The position numbers and the translations under genes were made by a program. Below, piece after piece: positions 5,979 through 34,916 of a stretch of 64,000 bases of DNA; the first letter of the stretch is position 1, and the number at the start of each line of letters is the position of its first letter. The notes beneath the pieces are model-generated. The model did no database searches. It saw nothing but the letters and a program-made list of their open reading frames with translations, and was not told the DNA's origin. The stretch comes from Halapricum salinum (GTDB taxonomy: Archaea > Halobacteriota > Halobacteria > Halobacteriales > Haloarculaceae), in NCBI RefSeq assembly GCF_004799665.1, contig NZ_CP031310.1:3092887-3156886 (forward strand), in the 5' to 3' direction.

Positions 5979-7228
5979 GCGATCTGCTGTCTGTCGAGGA
6001 GATCACCGTCGGCTTCGGCGAGGCCGGCGTTCTCGACGGCGTCTCCCTGTCGGTCGACGCGGAAGAGTTCGTCGGCCTGGTCGGCCCGAACGGCGCGGGC
6101 AAGACGACGCTGTTGCGGGCGATCAACGGCGTCCTCGACCCTGGCGCTGGGACTATCCACGTCGAGGGTCGCGCCCGCGATGCGTGTTCGACACGGCAGT
6201 GGAGCCAGCGCGTCGCGACGGTGCCACAGGACACCAGCGTCTCCTTCGCCTTCCGCGTCGAGGATATCGTCGAGATGGGGCGGACCCCACATCGAAGCCG
6301 CTCACAGTTTGGCACCAGCGAGTCTGACCGCCGCCGGATCGTCGATGCGCTCGATCGGACCGACACGGCACGGTTCCGCGAGCGATCGATCGACGAACTC
6401 TCTGGGGGCGAACGCCAGCGCGTGTTCGTCGCTCGCGCGCTCGCCCAGGACACGCCCCTACTCCTGCTCGACGAACCGACTGCCAGCCTCGACGTCAACC
6501 ACCAAGTCGAGATCCTCGAACTCGTTCGCGACCTCGTCGGTGAGGGCCGCGGCGCGCTCGCGGCGATCCACGACCTCGACCTCGCCGCCCGGTTCTGCGA
6601 CCGACTCGCGCTGCTGTCCGACGGGCGGATACGTGCAGTCGGCCCGCCCGAAGACGTCCTCGATCCTGGCGTACTCGACGAGGCGTTCGCCACGAGCACT
6701 ACCGTAACGACGAACCCTGCGACGGGGACCCCGACGGTGACCGCCCGCACCGACCGCGGCGACAGCGACAGGCGCGTGCACGTCCTCGGCGGCGGCCGCC
6801 TCGGCGCGCGAGCGATCGCGACGCTCGATGCCGCCGGCCACACCGTCAGCGCGGGTGTCTTCCGCGAGGGCGACGTGGCAACCGAGACGGCGTCTACACT
6901 CGGTGCCTCAGCTGTGACGAGCCCACCCACAGGCGAAGTTGGACCGGACGCGATCGCCGCAGCCCACGACCTCGCCAGTGGGGCAGACGTGGTGGTGCTC
7001 GCAGACGTGACGATCGGCTCGCGCCAGTGGGCGCTCGATGTCGCCGAGTCCGTCCCGTCTGTGGTCCTCCTCGAAGAGCAGCCACTCGAAGACCGAGTGC
7101 TCGCTGGTGAGCGCGCTCGCGATCGGTATCAGACGCTACGCGAACGCAGTCGAATCGCCGAGATCGAGTCGCTGCCGCTGGCCGTCGCCGAGGCTCAGAA
7201 CCAACTCCAGCGCCCCGCAGACGACTGA
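5975..7228 (+). CDS. btuD: ABC importer ATPase with extra C-terminal Rossmann-like domain
   Basis: A 417-residue protein starting at the GTG that overlaps the permease stop. Residues 1 to about 250 form a canonical nucleotide-binding domain: Walker [10 protein letters not shown] at 37-45, signature LSGGERQR at 142-149, Walker [13 protein letters not shown] at 162-173, and the H-loop His at 199. Residues from about 267 add a second domain opening with [17 protein letters not shown], a glycine-rich beta-alpha-beta start like NAD or nucleotide binders, then further alternating strands and helices. Most FecE/BtuD proteins end near 260 residues. The extra domain may sense a ligand or regulate the ATPase; no function is established. 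Confidence 0.88.
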
Positions 7229-7241
7229 GAAACGACTGTCG

Positions 7242-7682
7242 CTACTCGCCCTCCCGACGACCGAACAGGACCAGTCCCACCATCGAACAGACGACGTCGC
7301 CGTCGACCAGCGTCTCGATGCGAACGTCGACTTTGCCGTACTCCTCGCCCCACGGCTCTTTTTCGACGATCTCCGTCCGGGCTGTGAGCGTGTCGCCCGG
7401 TCTGACCGGCGCGAGCCACCGCATCTCGTCGACCCCGAGCGCGCCGCGCGTGTCTGCCTCCTGGAGAATGCCGGTGACGAGCAGTCGCATCGTCATCGAC
7501 GCCGTGTGCCACCCGCTGGCGACGAGGCCGCCGAACGGTGAGTCCGCGGCTGCCTCGGGATCGACGTGGAAGGGTTGTGGATCGTACTGCTCGGCGAACT
7601 CGACGATCTCCTCGCGAGTGACGGTGTAGGAGCCGAACGTCTCGGTGTCGCCGACGGTGAGGTCTTCGTAGGTAGTGGGCAT
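7242..7682 (-). CDS. MaoC-family hot-dog dehydratase / enoyl-CoA hydratase
   Basis: A 146-residue single hot-dog domain. The hydratase signature is visible as D-QPFHVDPEAAADSPFGGLVASGWHT, with the catalytic Asp (about 35) and His (about 40) of (R)-specific enoyl-CoA hydratases. Likely substrates are short acyl-CoA esters, for example in beta-oxidation, polyhydroxyalkanoate supply or methylaspartate-type pathways. No neighbour settles which. It runs in the same direction as coxB upstream, with a 59-bp gap. Confidence 0.88.
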   Translation of the reverse strand: MPTTYEDLTVGDTETFGSYTVTREEIVEFAEQYDPQPFHVDPEAAADSPFGGLVASGWHTASMTMRLLVTGILQEADTRGALGVDEMRWLAPVRPGDTLTARTEIVEKEPWGEEYGKVDVRIETLVDGDVVCSMVGLVLFGRREGE

Positions 7683-31858: not shown

Positions 31859-32821
31859 TCAGTCGCGCCGGCCAGTCTTCTCACGGACGCCAGCGCCGAA
31901 GAGGCCGAAGATCGCACCAGTGAGACCGACCCCGCCGCCGATCGCGAGCAGTCGGCCGGAGCCCCGACGCGTCTGCCCGTCTCCGCCGCCGACGACGACC
32001 GCACCGCGCATCCCCATCTCCGTGTGCGGAGTGCAGGCGTACTTGTACGTCCCCGACTCTGCGGTGAACTCGAAGGTGTGACCAGCTTCGCCGGTGAGTT
32101 CGCTCTCGAAGGAGCCGTCTTCAGCGACGACGTTGTGAGTCCCACCTGCGCCAGTCCACTCCCAGACGATCGTCGTCCCGGGGTCGACCCGGACCGCTGC
32201 CGGGCCGAACGCGTAGGGGCCCTTGTTCCCGCCAGCGCCGACCTCGATTGTCACCTCGTCCTGACCAGTCTGGTCGACGGTCCGCTCGAAGTTGCCCGTC
32301 TTCGCGAACCAGTCGCCGTAATCGGGACCACTCGTCTGCCGGTCGGATTCGTCGCCACCGCCGCCGCCGACGCCGGGTTCGCCGACCACGACGACGCCTT
32401 TCATCCCCATCACCTTGTGTGGGTTGCAGTAGTACTTGACGACCCCTTCAGACTCGACGGTCTGCTCGAAAGTGTGTCCGGCTTCGCTGGCGTACTCGCT
32501 CTCGAAGGAGCCGTCTTCGGCGACGACGTTGTGTGTGCCGTCGCCGGTCCACTCCCAGACGACAGTGGTTCCGGGATCGACCCGGACCGCCGCGGGACCG
32601 AAGCCGTTCGGGCCGTTGTTAGCCGAGACGCCGACCTCGATTGTCACCTCGTTCTGGCCAGTCTTGTCGACGAGATCGTCGTAGTTGCCGGCGTTGTCCA
32701 GATAACCGTCGAAGCTCGGTTTGGCCGCGGCCGTGGGAACGCCGGCCAGTGCCGCCGCACCAGCGGCACCTGCGACGCCGCTGAGAACCGTTCGCCGACT
32801 CACCCCTCTGTTCTGACCCAT
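31859..32821 (-). CDS. didomain halocyanin (Tat-exported blue copper protein)
   Basis: A 320-residue protein with a Tat signal (SRRTVLSG at 8-15), two cupredoxin domains and a C-terminal membrane helix (about 290-312) followed by basic residues. Type-1 copper ligands are complete in both domains: His97, Cys132, His135, Met140 in the first and His229, Cys263, His266, Met271 in the second. The two domains are close copies, indicating internal duplication. A Gly-rich linker separates them. It starts 3 bp after the multicopper oxidase gene and is its likely electron partner at the outer face of the membrane. Confidence 0.92.
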   Translation of the reverse strand: MGQNRGVSRRTVLSGVAGAAGAAALAGVPTAAAKPSFDGYLDNAGNYDDLVDKTGQNEVTIEVGVSANNGPNGFGPAAVRVDPGTTVVWEWTGDGTHNVVAEDGSFESEYASEAGHTFEQTVESEGVVKYYCNPHKVMGMKGVVVVGEPGVGGGGGDESDRQTSGPDYGDWFAKTGNFERTVDQTGQDEVTIEVGAGGNKGPYAFGPAAVRVDPGTTIVWEWTGAGGTHNVVAEDGSFESELTGEAGHTFEFTAESGTYKYACTPHTEMGMRGAVVVGGGDGQTRRGSGRLLAIGGGVGLTGAIFGLFGAGVREKTGRRD

Positions 32822-32824
32822 GTC

Positions 32825-33973
32825 TCACACCTCGTATCCCGCGTATTCCATCAGGTTCGCGAAGATGTCGGTGTCCATGACTTCCTTGTAGACGACGCCG
32901 GTCAGCATCCCGCCAGGGTAGAAATTGCCGTTCATGACGTGGTTGACCTTGTGGCAGTGCATGAGGTAGATCCCGGGGTCGGCGTCGGCCTCGAACTCGA
33001 TGGTGTGGCGTTCGGCGGGCGCGACGTTGGTCACGTCCATCTCGTGGCGTGCCGCCTCCGGAATCACGCCGCCGTCTTTCTCGACACGCTCGAAGCGGTG
33101 GTTGTGAATGTGCAGCGGGTGACTCATGTACCCGCCGTTGACGAAGTGCACCCGGACGGTATCGCCCTGTTCGACGATCAACGGTGATCCATCCTCGGGG
33201 TGGAGCGTCCGTGGTGCGACCTTTCCGTTGACGGTGAAGACGTCGGGCTGGCGGTCGCGCGGCGAGTAGCTGGCGTCCTGGCCGGCCATCATCTTGTTGA
33301 GCCGGGAGTCCCACTCCTTGACCGTCATGAAGTACTCCTTGTCGGCCGGCTCGTAGTCCTTGGGATCGACTCGGAAGATGCCGTACATACCCATGTCGAT
33401 GTGACGATGGGTTTGGAAGTGGCAGTGATAGAGGTGGGTTCCGGGGACGTTCGCCGGGATTTCGTAGGTGTGTTTCTCGCCAGGTTCGACGGTGATTCCC
33501 GTCGTCGTCGGGACGCCGTCGTCTTTCCACTGCTTGGTGACGCCGTGGAAGTGAACGGTGTGTGGCCGCTGGCCGTTGGTGTTGTCCAGCGTCACTTCCA
33601 TGTCTTCGCCCTCGGTCGTCCGCAGGATCGGTGCCGGGACGCTGAGGGGGCCGTCGTCGGCCTGGAAGGCCCACACTCGTGGGAGTTCGACCGGCCCGCC
33701 CATCGTCTCTAGCGGATGGGCCTGGTGGACGGCCGGCTGCGTCCCGAGCGTCACCTGGTTGCCTTGCTCGTCGACCTGCACGACTTCGGGCGGACTCGTC
33801 GTCGGGAGATCGCTTTGCTGGGCAGCGCTGAGATTCTCGGTCCTACCGGTGTCGTCGACGCTGCTGGCCGGTGCTGCACAGCCTGCGGCAGCGAGTGCTC
33901 CGGTGGTCCCAGTCGCTGCGATAAATTCTCGTCGAGACAGTCCCGTTCCGGGCGCGCCGATGCGATCGGTCAT
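32825..33973 (-). CDS. two-domain multicopper oxidase (Tat lipoprotein)
   Basis: A 382-residue exported enzyme with Tat motif SRREF at 13-17 and lipobox Cys32. It has two cupredoxin domains. Domain 1 has H138-x2-H-x-H (PHTVHFH) and H183-C184-H185-x3-H189-x4-M194, a full set of type-1 ligands plus type-2/3 histidines. Domain 2 has H285-x2-H-x-H (HPLHIH) and H339-C340-H341-x3-H345, again a type-1-like set, although the axial position is not a clear Met. Two-domain oxidases are related to both laccases and copper nitrite reductases. Substrate is unknown. It is the first gene of an operon with halocyanin. Confidence 0.87.
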   Translation of the reverse strand: MTDRIGAPGTGLSRREFIAATGTTGALAAAGCAAPASSVDDTGRTENLSAAQQSDLPTTSPPEVVQVDEQGNQVTLGTQPAVHQAHPLETMGGPVELPRVWAFQADDGPLSVPAPILRTTEGEDMEVTLDNTNGQRPHTVHFHGVTKQWKDDGVPTTTGITVEPGEKHTYEIPANVPGTHLYHCHFQTHRHIDMGMYGIFRVDPKDYEPADKEYFMTVKEWDSRLNKMMAGQDASYSPRDRQPDVFTVNGKVAPRTLHPEDGSPLIVEQGDTVRVHFVNGGYMSHPLHIHNHRFERVEKDGGVIPEAARHEMDVTNVAPAERHTIEFEADADPGIYLMHCHKVNHVMNGNFYPGGMLTGVVYKEVMDTDIFANLMEYAGYEV

Positions 33974-33992
33974 TACACCCGAGCATTTGAAG

Positions 33993-34009
33993 CCCCCTCA
34001 TATAGGGGG
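33993..34009 (-). promoter_or_regulatory. palindrome overlapping the multicopper oxidase TATA box
   Basis: Arms CCCCCT (33993-33998) and AGGGGG (34004-34009) enclose CATAT. The minus-strand TATA-like CTATATGAG lies inside, about 29 bp before the start codon, so transcription is probably leaderless. A protein bound here would block TBP, making this a candidate operator for a copper- or redox-responsive repressor. Confidence 0.5.
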
Positions 34010-34080
34010 TCCAGCACATTCCAGCGGATCGGGAATCGGGTGAACATGTTCGTCACCCATTTATAAATGAGTGGCCGAAC

Positions 34081-34629
34081 TCAGGATTCGATCTCCGAGC
34101 GGAGTGACTCGATGCGTTCCAGCAGCTGTTCGATCTGTTCGTCGACCTGGGCCTGACTCTGTTCGCGGAGCTGTTCGAGCTGTGACTCGGTCTGGTCGAG
34201 AAATTGTCCGGTCTGGGCCTCCAGATCTGCGTGGGCGTCCAGCAGTGCCGACAGCTGCTCGTCGAGCGAATCGACGTAGGCCTCGGTGGCCTCTTCGGCG
34301 TTCTCGATCCCCTCTTCGGTCATCTCCAGGGCCTGTTCGCCGGCCTGTTCGACGGCGTCGAACTGCTCGTCGATCGCCTCTCTGACCTGCTCGATGCCCG
34401 CGACCGACCCGGGAACCGTGGATTCGATCATATCCAGTTGGGAGTGCATCGCGTCGCGGGTCATCTCGGCGCTGCGTTGCTGGGCCTCGGCACCGCTTTC
34501 GAGGCCGCCAACGAGTGACTCCGAAAGCTGTTTCTGGAACTGGAGACTGCGCTTGAAAGCCTCGTTGCTCTGTTCGATCGCCCGGCGCTGTACCTCGAAG
34601 GCCATGCTGAGGGGGTTGTCCTCGGGCAT
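34081..34629 (-). CDS. phasin-like coiled-coil protein (PhaP-like)
   Basis: A 182-residue, Glu/Gln/Ala-rich, almost entirely helical protein. The N-terminus (NPLSMAFEVQRRAIEQSNEAFKRS) and the long amphipathic helices resemble haloarchaeal PhaP-type phasins that coat polyhydroxyalkanoate granules. A generic coiled coil is the alternative. The ATG at 34629 is chosen. No PHA synthase gene is visible in this window; the MaoC hydratase at 7242 could supply PHA monomers but is distant. Confidence 0.65.
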   Translation of the reverse strand: MPEDNPLSMAFEVQRRAIEQSNEAFKRSLQFQKQLSESLVGGLESGAEAQQRSAEMTRDAMHSQLDMIESTVPGSVAGIEQVREAIDEQFDAVEQAGEQALEMTEEGIENAEEATEAYVDSLDEQLSALLDAHADLEAQTGQFLDQTESQLEQLREQSQAQVDEQIEQLLERIESLRSEIES

Positions 34630-34696
34630 ACGCGTGTGCTCGGCGGCCTCACATATCAAACCAGCCCCCGGTTCACGACGTCGCCCAGACGAAACT

Positions 34697-34910
34697 GCTC
34701 GCGAGACGGCCGTCGACAGGTCACGTCTCCCGGCTGGACTACTCGCGCATAAAATCGCTCGCGGGCCGCCGTTGACAGGTCACGTCTCCCGGCTGGACTA
34801 CTCGCACGTGAACGTGCTCGCGGGCCGCCGTCGACAGGTCACGTCTCCCGGCCGGACTGGCTGCGCATACACGCGCAGCCGTGCCACCGTCGACAGGTCT
34901 CTTCACGTGG
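34697..34910. repeat. tandem repeat array, period 59-60 bp
   Basis: About 3.5 imperfect copies begin at 34697, 34757, 34816 and 34875. The shared core reads GTCGACAGGTCACGTCTCCC, followed by GGCTGGACT. The boundaries between copies differ but tend to be self-complementary, for example GGCTGCGC-atacac-GCGCAGCC at 34859-34880 and GCACGT-ga-ACGTGC just before 34820. The array ends immediately before the predicted promoter of the kinase at 34954. No open frame here looks coding. Confidence 0.85.
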
Positions 34911-34916
34911 ACCTGT

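Follow-up and report, generated by a model that had tools for sequence, protein, structure and literature searches.

The window analysed here is a 64,000-nucleotide stretch of the Halapricum salinum genome (3.45 Mb, one contig). Its minus strand carries a gene for a two-domain multicopper oxidase (32825..33973) with an open reading frame of 382 amino acids and the signals of a Tat lipoprotein (SRREF, lipobox ..AAGC32). Pfam matches to Cu-oxidase_2 (E=7e-31) and Cu-oxidase_3 (E=6e-21), together with 79 haloarchaeal homologues of 57-79% identity, exclude chance as the source of this reading frame, which is real. The twin arginines (R14 and R15) and C32 are invariant in a 50-sequence alignment of the oxidase, and C32 is kept in 80/80 sequences of the larger alignment used below. 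Both Pfam and an AF2 model searched with Foldseek give two cupredoxin domains. The model has a mean pLDDT of 83.4, with 223 residues at 90 or above and a confident core; among PDB structures it comes closest in fold to 3g5w and 2zwn, both type C two-domain oxidases. The interval originally delimited for this gene ended at 34009, 36 bp upstream of the ATG, because it took in a palindrome at 33993-34009, although the start codon is at 33973.

Only 3 bp after the oxidase stop codon lies a gene on the same strand for a didomain halocyanin (31859..32821, minus strand; 320 amino acids) with a Tat signal and a C-terminal hydrophobic anchor. Upstream of the oxidase, a gene at 34081-34659 (minus strand) encodes a Glu/Gln-rich protein, probably a coiled coil, with no Pfam match. 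A tandem repeat at 34697-34899 (59-bp unit, 3.4 copies, 82% matches) precedes a histidine-kinase-type gene at 34915. In another genome of the window's family (G043, contig 5) the oxidase gene carries an in-frame TGA and is broken into two parts, 70448-71011 and 72230-72853, separated by about 1.2 kb.

Copper ligands were assessed in 80 aligned sequences, the window protein and its 79 haloarchaeal homologues. As in type A enzymes, all eight histidines of the trinuclear cluster are present in 80/80: H141 and H143 (HFH), H183 and H185 (HCH), H288 and H290 (HIH), and H339 and H341 (a second HCH). These motifs, and C340 and H345 of domain 2, are in the reading frame as the initial annotation had placed them. 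For the type-1 site of domain 1 it had named H138, C184, H189 and M194. H138 (33560..33562, minus strand) and C184 (33422..33424, minus strand; within H183-C-H185) are each found in 80/80 and stand, but H189 (Cys+5) and the Met at Cys+10 are ruled out as ligands by conservation. Residue 189 is His in 54/80 sequences, Pro in 13, Gln in 12 and X in 1, and it is Asn in the Deinococcus relatives, 2zwn and 3g5w; M194 is found in 76/80. In place of this pair, H191 (Cys+7; 33401..33403, minus strand) and M196 (Cys+12; 33386..33388, minus strand) are each conserved in 80/80. H191 aligns with a His of 2zwn, 3g5w and the Deinococcus relatives, and M196 with a Met of 2zwn and 3g5w; the Deinococcus relatives, with Asn at 189, keep both. 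The domain-1 type-1 set is thus H138/C184/H191/M196.

In domain 2, H285 (HPLHIH; 33119..33121, minus strand), C340 (within H339-C-H341; 32954..32956, minus strand) and H345 (Cys+5; 32939..32941, minus strand) are each found in 80/80, and C340 is replaced by Asp or Ala in solved relatives. The domain had been thought to lack a clear axial Met, and its site therefore to be perhaps weak. This did not hold, as M356 (Cys+16, in YPGGM; 32906..32908, minus strand) is also invariant (80/80); it is Pro or Ile in the type C enzymes 2zwn and 3g5w. The loop ahead of M356 differs in length between homologues (L061, L066, L082) while YPGGM stays constant, which marks M356 as the candidate axial Met of domain 2. 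With both H138/C184/H191/M196 and H285/C340/H345/M356 invariant, a type-1 site in each domain is well supported at the level of sequence, and the claim of two predicted sites emerges stronger than it was made, through the domain-2 Met.

The eight trinuclear histidines and two type-1 sets fit a type A two-domain multicopper oxidase, judged from the alignment. Type C enzymes have a type-1 site in domain 1 only, whereas domain 2 of the window protein keeps Cys, both His and Met. The best PDB matches by sequence as well as fold are type C, namely the blue copper oxidase of N. europaea (3g5w) and the metagenomic mgLAC (2zwn). They share with the window protein the domain order, the positions of the domain-1 type-1 His and Met, the trinuclear His motifs and the domain-2 loop length; unlike it, they have Asp for the domain-2 Cys and Pro or Ile for the Met, with both domain-2 His kept. 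We infer that domain 2 of 2zwn and 3g5w may be a decayed type-1 site. None of the nearest two-domain oxidases of solved structure has the domain-2 Cys: the motif reads HDH in 2zwn and 3g5w and HAH in 7rab and 3gdc. Copper nitrite reductase (NirK, TIGR02376) resembles the oxidase in having two cupredoxin domains, a domain-1 type-1 copper and an interfacial catalytic copper, but it has no domain-2 type-1 site and one catalytic copper. We rejected NirK as the identity of the window oxidase, which scores 68.6 bits against a TIGR02376 cut-off of 296.3. The one further PF07732 protein of the genome is a separate, true NirK (L002; HCAVPNMDYHISTGM), above that cut-off.

The type A class was already known. 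In the searches of Ausec 2011, type A two-domain laccase genes were solely archaeal, from Halogeometricum, Haloterrigena, Haloarcula marismortui and Halobacterium NRC-1 (PMC3192119), the NRC-1 assignment being that of Nakamura 2003 as cited there. The initial annotation's description of the form as rarely described therefore holds for its biochemistry but not for its recognition, since sequence-based assignments of type A enzymes to haloarchaea were made both by Nakamura 2003, which Ausec 2011 cites, and by Ausec 2011 itself (PMC3192119). Haloarchaeal type A enzymes have two cupredoxin domains with type-1 ligands in both, as here, and the window protein is another orthologue with no essential difference from them. 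The one full-length family member that H. salinarum has shares 75% identity with the window protein, which makes the published NRC-1 gene very probably an orthologue of the window oxidase; the copy on pNG600 of Haloarcula marismortui is 73.8% identical. No characterised type A enzyme was found in the open literature searched, and no solved type A structure is among the PDB matches of the window oxidase. Type A outside haloarchaea was looked for among plasmids and in a 295-genome survey of the phylum. Among plasmids no further type A form appeared in the Deinococcus relatives (about 36% identity), which have HDH in domain 2, and in the survey full-length matches occurred only inside the window's own order.

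The halocyanin had been described as carrying two full type-1 sites, and this is correct. TIGR03102 matches in two stretches (E=1.2e-78), each with a complete His/Cys/His/Met set (H97 with C132-NPHKVMGM; H229 with C263-TPHTEMGM). By an ORF heuristic, a halocyanin gene is immediately downstream of the oxidase in about one quarter of homologous loci, and Deinococcus relatives of the oxidase bear a C-terminal cupredoxin-like extension. Conservation and gene order thus lend support to the likely oxidase-halocyanin electron chain that had been proposed.

Upstream of the oxidase, at -79 from its ATG, is CGAACATGTTCA (34041..34052, minus strand), one mismatch from CGAAYATDKTYG, the motif of the nir, nor and nos promoters of H. 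mediterranei (PMC10062603, PMC11218638). In the nirK promoter of that species CGAAYATDKTYG is likewise at -79 (PMC10062603, PMC11218638), and CGAACATGTTCA is identical to the MUT12 variant of nosp, the mutation in that promoter that caused no significant loss (PMC10062603). The motif is exact in 22/79 homologous oxidase promoters compared to 0.1 expected, within one mismatch in 37/79 (1.3 expected) and within two in 63/79 (12.5 expected), mostly at -77 to -86. Expectations are from first-order shuffles, and related sequences inflate the counts, though matches span several genera. The motif gives 11 strand-hits in the window's own genome, and its reversed control gives 0. The oxidase promoter thus carries the element of the denitrification regulon near -79 with one mismatch.

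A second element, TTCYC-N7-RRGAAY, lies about 62 bp before the start codon, with the -79 motif on its upstream side and a TATA-like box downstream. In the window this half-palindrome is TTCCCGATCCGCTGGAAT (34018..34035, minus strand), and 39/80 promoters match it within one mismatch compared to 0.57 expected, a post hoc figure as the motif was derived from the same sequences in which it was counted. The palindrome said to overlap the promoter is present (CCCCCT-ATATG-AGGGGG; 33993..34009, minus strand), with 6-bp arms that surround the TATA-like TATATG some 26-31 bases before the ATG. Its inverted repeat, however, is not obviously kept in homologues, and we rejected it as a regulator site; the conserved promoter elements are instead those at about -79 and -62.

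We surveyed 146 genomes of the order for the joint presence of the oxidase and nirK and for the distance between them. The oxidase is found in 79, NirK in 71 and both in 58 (Fisher OR 11.5, p 4e-11, phylogeny ignored). By hand-tabulated genus, in eight (g1, g4, g10, g19, g20, g34, g40 and g48) one genome or more carries both genes and another carries neither; g4, g10, g28, g29 and g33 also show the oxidase or nirK alone. The two genes are 5-12 kb apart in six Halobacterium genomes (g29), in Haloferax marisrubri (G126) and in one more genus (G116, two copies). In Haloferax marisrubri (L093) the genes run in the order MCO, Bat/HTH_10, halocyanin, CGCGG-like protein, qNor, halocyanin and nirK, where qNor and nirK were named from sequence and coordinates. 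In Halapricum salinum, nirK is 278 kb from the oxidase, and NosZ was not found in the genome. Among oxidase-positive genomes, 21/79, Halobacterium salinarum included, are without NirK, and 13/79 are without both NirK and NosZ. Therefore, the oxidase is not strictly a part of denitrification.

Other genes recur at these loci. A CGCGG-family putative rSAM-modified RiPP (TIGR03995) and a TIGR04053 radical SAM/SPASM gene adjoin nirK and the oxidase in Halobacterium (L092:1990-2298 and 6340-7422; L095 is similar). Beside nirK there is also a conserved protein of about 185-220 amino acids (L092:3736-4305, L093:17034-17693, L102:905-1462), of which two copies scanned gave no Pfam or NCBIfam match. 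In the Halapricum salinum genome an exact CGAATATGTTCG precedes the gene for this protein by about 39 bp.

H. mediterranei offers a close published comparison for this arrangement. An MCO of its nir-nor cluster, E6P09_RS00725, carries CGAAYATDKTYG (PMC10062603), and a protein of that cluster annotated as 'nitrite reductase-copper containing' co-enriches with NirK, to which it is 23.3% identical (PMC7754194). The MCO is like the window oxidase in annotated family, in its place by a Bat regulator and halocyanin as judged from gene numbers, and in having CGAAYATDKTYG (PMC10062603, PMC7754194, PMC11218638). That E6P09_RS00725 is the annotated 'nitrite reductase', and that it is orthologous to the window oxidase, are read from annotation and from a gene order matching Haloferax marisrubri, whose MCO-nirK arrangement resembles the H. 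mediterranei cluster. Under denitrifying conditions two MCO-cupredoxin operons of H. mediterranei, which may or may not belong to the window oxidase family, are upregulated, with MCO genes up by 3.2 and 7.7 log2 units (PMC11218638).

A second, mobile form of the oxidase shares its island with DsbB, a CAAX protease and a DsbA-like protein that has a thioredoxin domain (L016-L018, L020, L025, L028-L034, L037, L057, L067, L079, and L104 on Haloarcula marismortui pNG600). The pNG600 copy is also accompanied by CtaA, a plastocyanin-type protein and a P-type ATPase. Halorussus, Haloarcula and Halosegnis (L030, L031, L057, L067) share identical mature proteins of this form, which suggests that the gene was recently transferred horizontally.

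We consider it probable that the oxidase is a halocyanin-fed type A enzyme of the low-oxygen/denitrification regulon that includes nirK and nor. The basis for this reading is the open reading frame, ligand conservation, gene order, the promoter motif and, in relatives, the proximity and joint occurrence of oxidase and nirK. The protein would be a cupredoxin didomain exported by the Tat route, anchored through a lipid and, by homology, assembled as a trimer. Each domain would hold one type-1 copper, and a type-2/type-3 trinuclear cluster would lie between domain 1 of a given subunit and domain 2 of its neighbour. The halocyanin, probably made from the same transcript, would most likely bring membrane electrons to the type-1 coppers of the oxidase, from which they would cross two His-Cys-His bridges to the trinuclear cluster. 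There O2, or less likely a nitrogen oxide, would be reduced. Made in low-oxygen or denitrifying conditions as a member of the nirK/nor regulon, the enzyme would probably clear residual O2, or otherwise protect or support the periplasmic nitrite and NO steps. Against this reading stand the oxidase-positive genomes that lack NirK, and, in the window's own genome, the 278 kb to nirK and the failure to find NosZ. In addition, the induction of an O2-reducing enzyme under anoxia needs explaining, and the neighbours of the mobile variant (CtaA, DsbA/DsbB, the plastocyanin-type protein and the P-type ATPase) look more like copper or redox homeostasis.

Those neighbours, P-type ATPase, CtaA and Dsb proteins, are also what an oxidase of copper homeostasis might keep. 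Such an enzyme, CueO/CopA-like, would oxidize Cu(I) or help to load copper enzymes (NirK, NosZ) outside the membrane and be induced as copper demand rises in denitrification; this role was suggested by the H. mediterranei authors for the induced MCO operons (PMC11218638), and the best sub-threshold NCBIfam match of the window oxidase is copper_res_A. However, the oxidase sequence has no apparent Met-rich copper-binding segment, its gene in the window is paired with a halocyanin and not with copper transporters, and its promoter motif is of the nir/nor/nos type. We regard copper homeostasis as rather unlikely; with the nirK-less genomes and the mobile island weighed, it ranks second to the halocyanin-fed, low-oxygen oxidase.

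Alternatively, the interfacial copper could act on nitrite or NO rather than O2, making the protein a second nitrite reductase or some other enzyme of nitrogen-oxide turnover. The 'nitrite reductase' label in H. mediterranei (PMC7754194) and the linkage and co-regulation with nirK in relatives are consistent with this, as is the nirK-cluster ncgABC of N. europaea, which is tied to nitrite tolerance, putatively via NO removal (PMC10781756). Yet only 23.3% identity to NirK was reported for the H. mediterranei protein (PMC7754194), the window oxidase falls below the TIGR02376 cut-off (68.6 bits vs 296.3), and all eight trinuclear histidines are kept whereas NirK has a single type-2 copper, leaving this a slim prospect. 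It is also improbable, if less so, that the enzyme is functionally type C, with the domain-2 ligands present but the second type-1 site unloaded or off the electron path. Two points favour this: domain 2 has an unusual Cys-to-Met spacing (+16), and in the closest solved relatives only domain 1 carries a site. Yet the Cys, the Met and the two His of domain 2 do not vary across the 80 sequences, which reach down to 57% identity, and relatives without the domain-2 Cys also lack the Met or the second His.

Type A two-domain oxidases have been proposed as a missing link in multicopper oxidase evolution. An ancestral type A, as the initial annotation had it, is compatible with our data, in that type C relatives keep an apparent decayed domain-2 site, but is not demonstrated by them. 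Tentatively, the haloarchaeal type A proteins may be working enzymes whose trimers hold six type-1 coppers, with electrons entering every trinuclear cluster from two sides. They would serve the nitrite/NO branch of denitrification, and the bacterial type C form would have arisen from such a form once the domain-2 Cys and Met were lost and both His left. What is new here is the context: the -79 denitrification motif, the nirK linkage seen in Halobacterium and Haloferax, and the joint occurrence of the two genes. With a conserved family, corrected ligands, and a partner and an induction condition that are both likely, the missing-link proposal can be tested directly, and the oxidase becomes a candidate added component of haloarchaeal denitrification.
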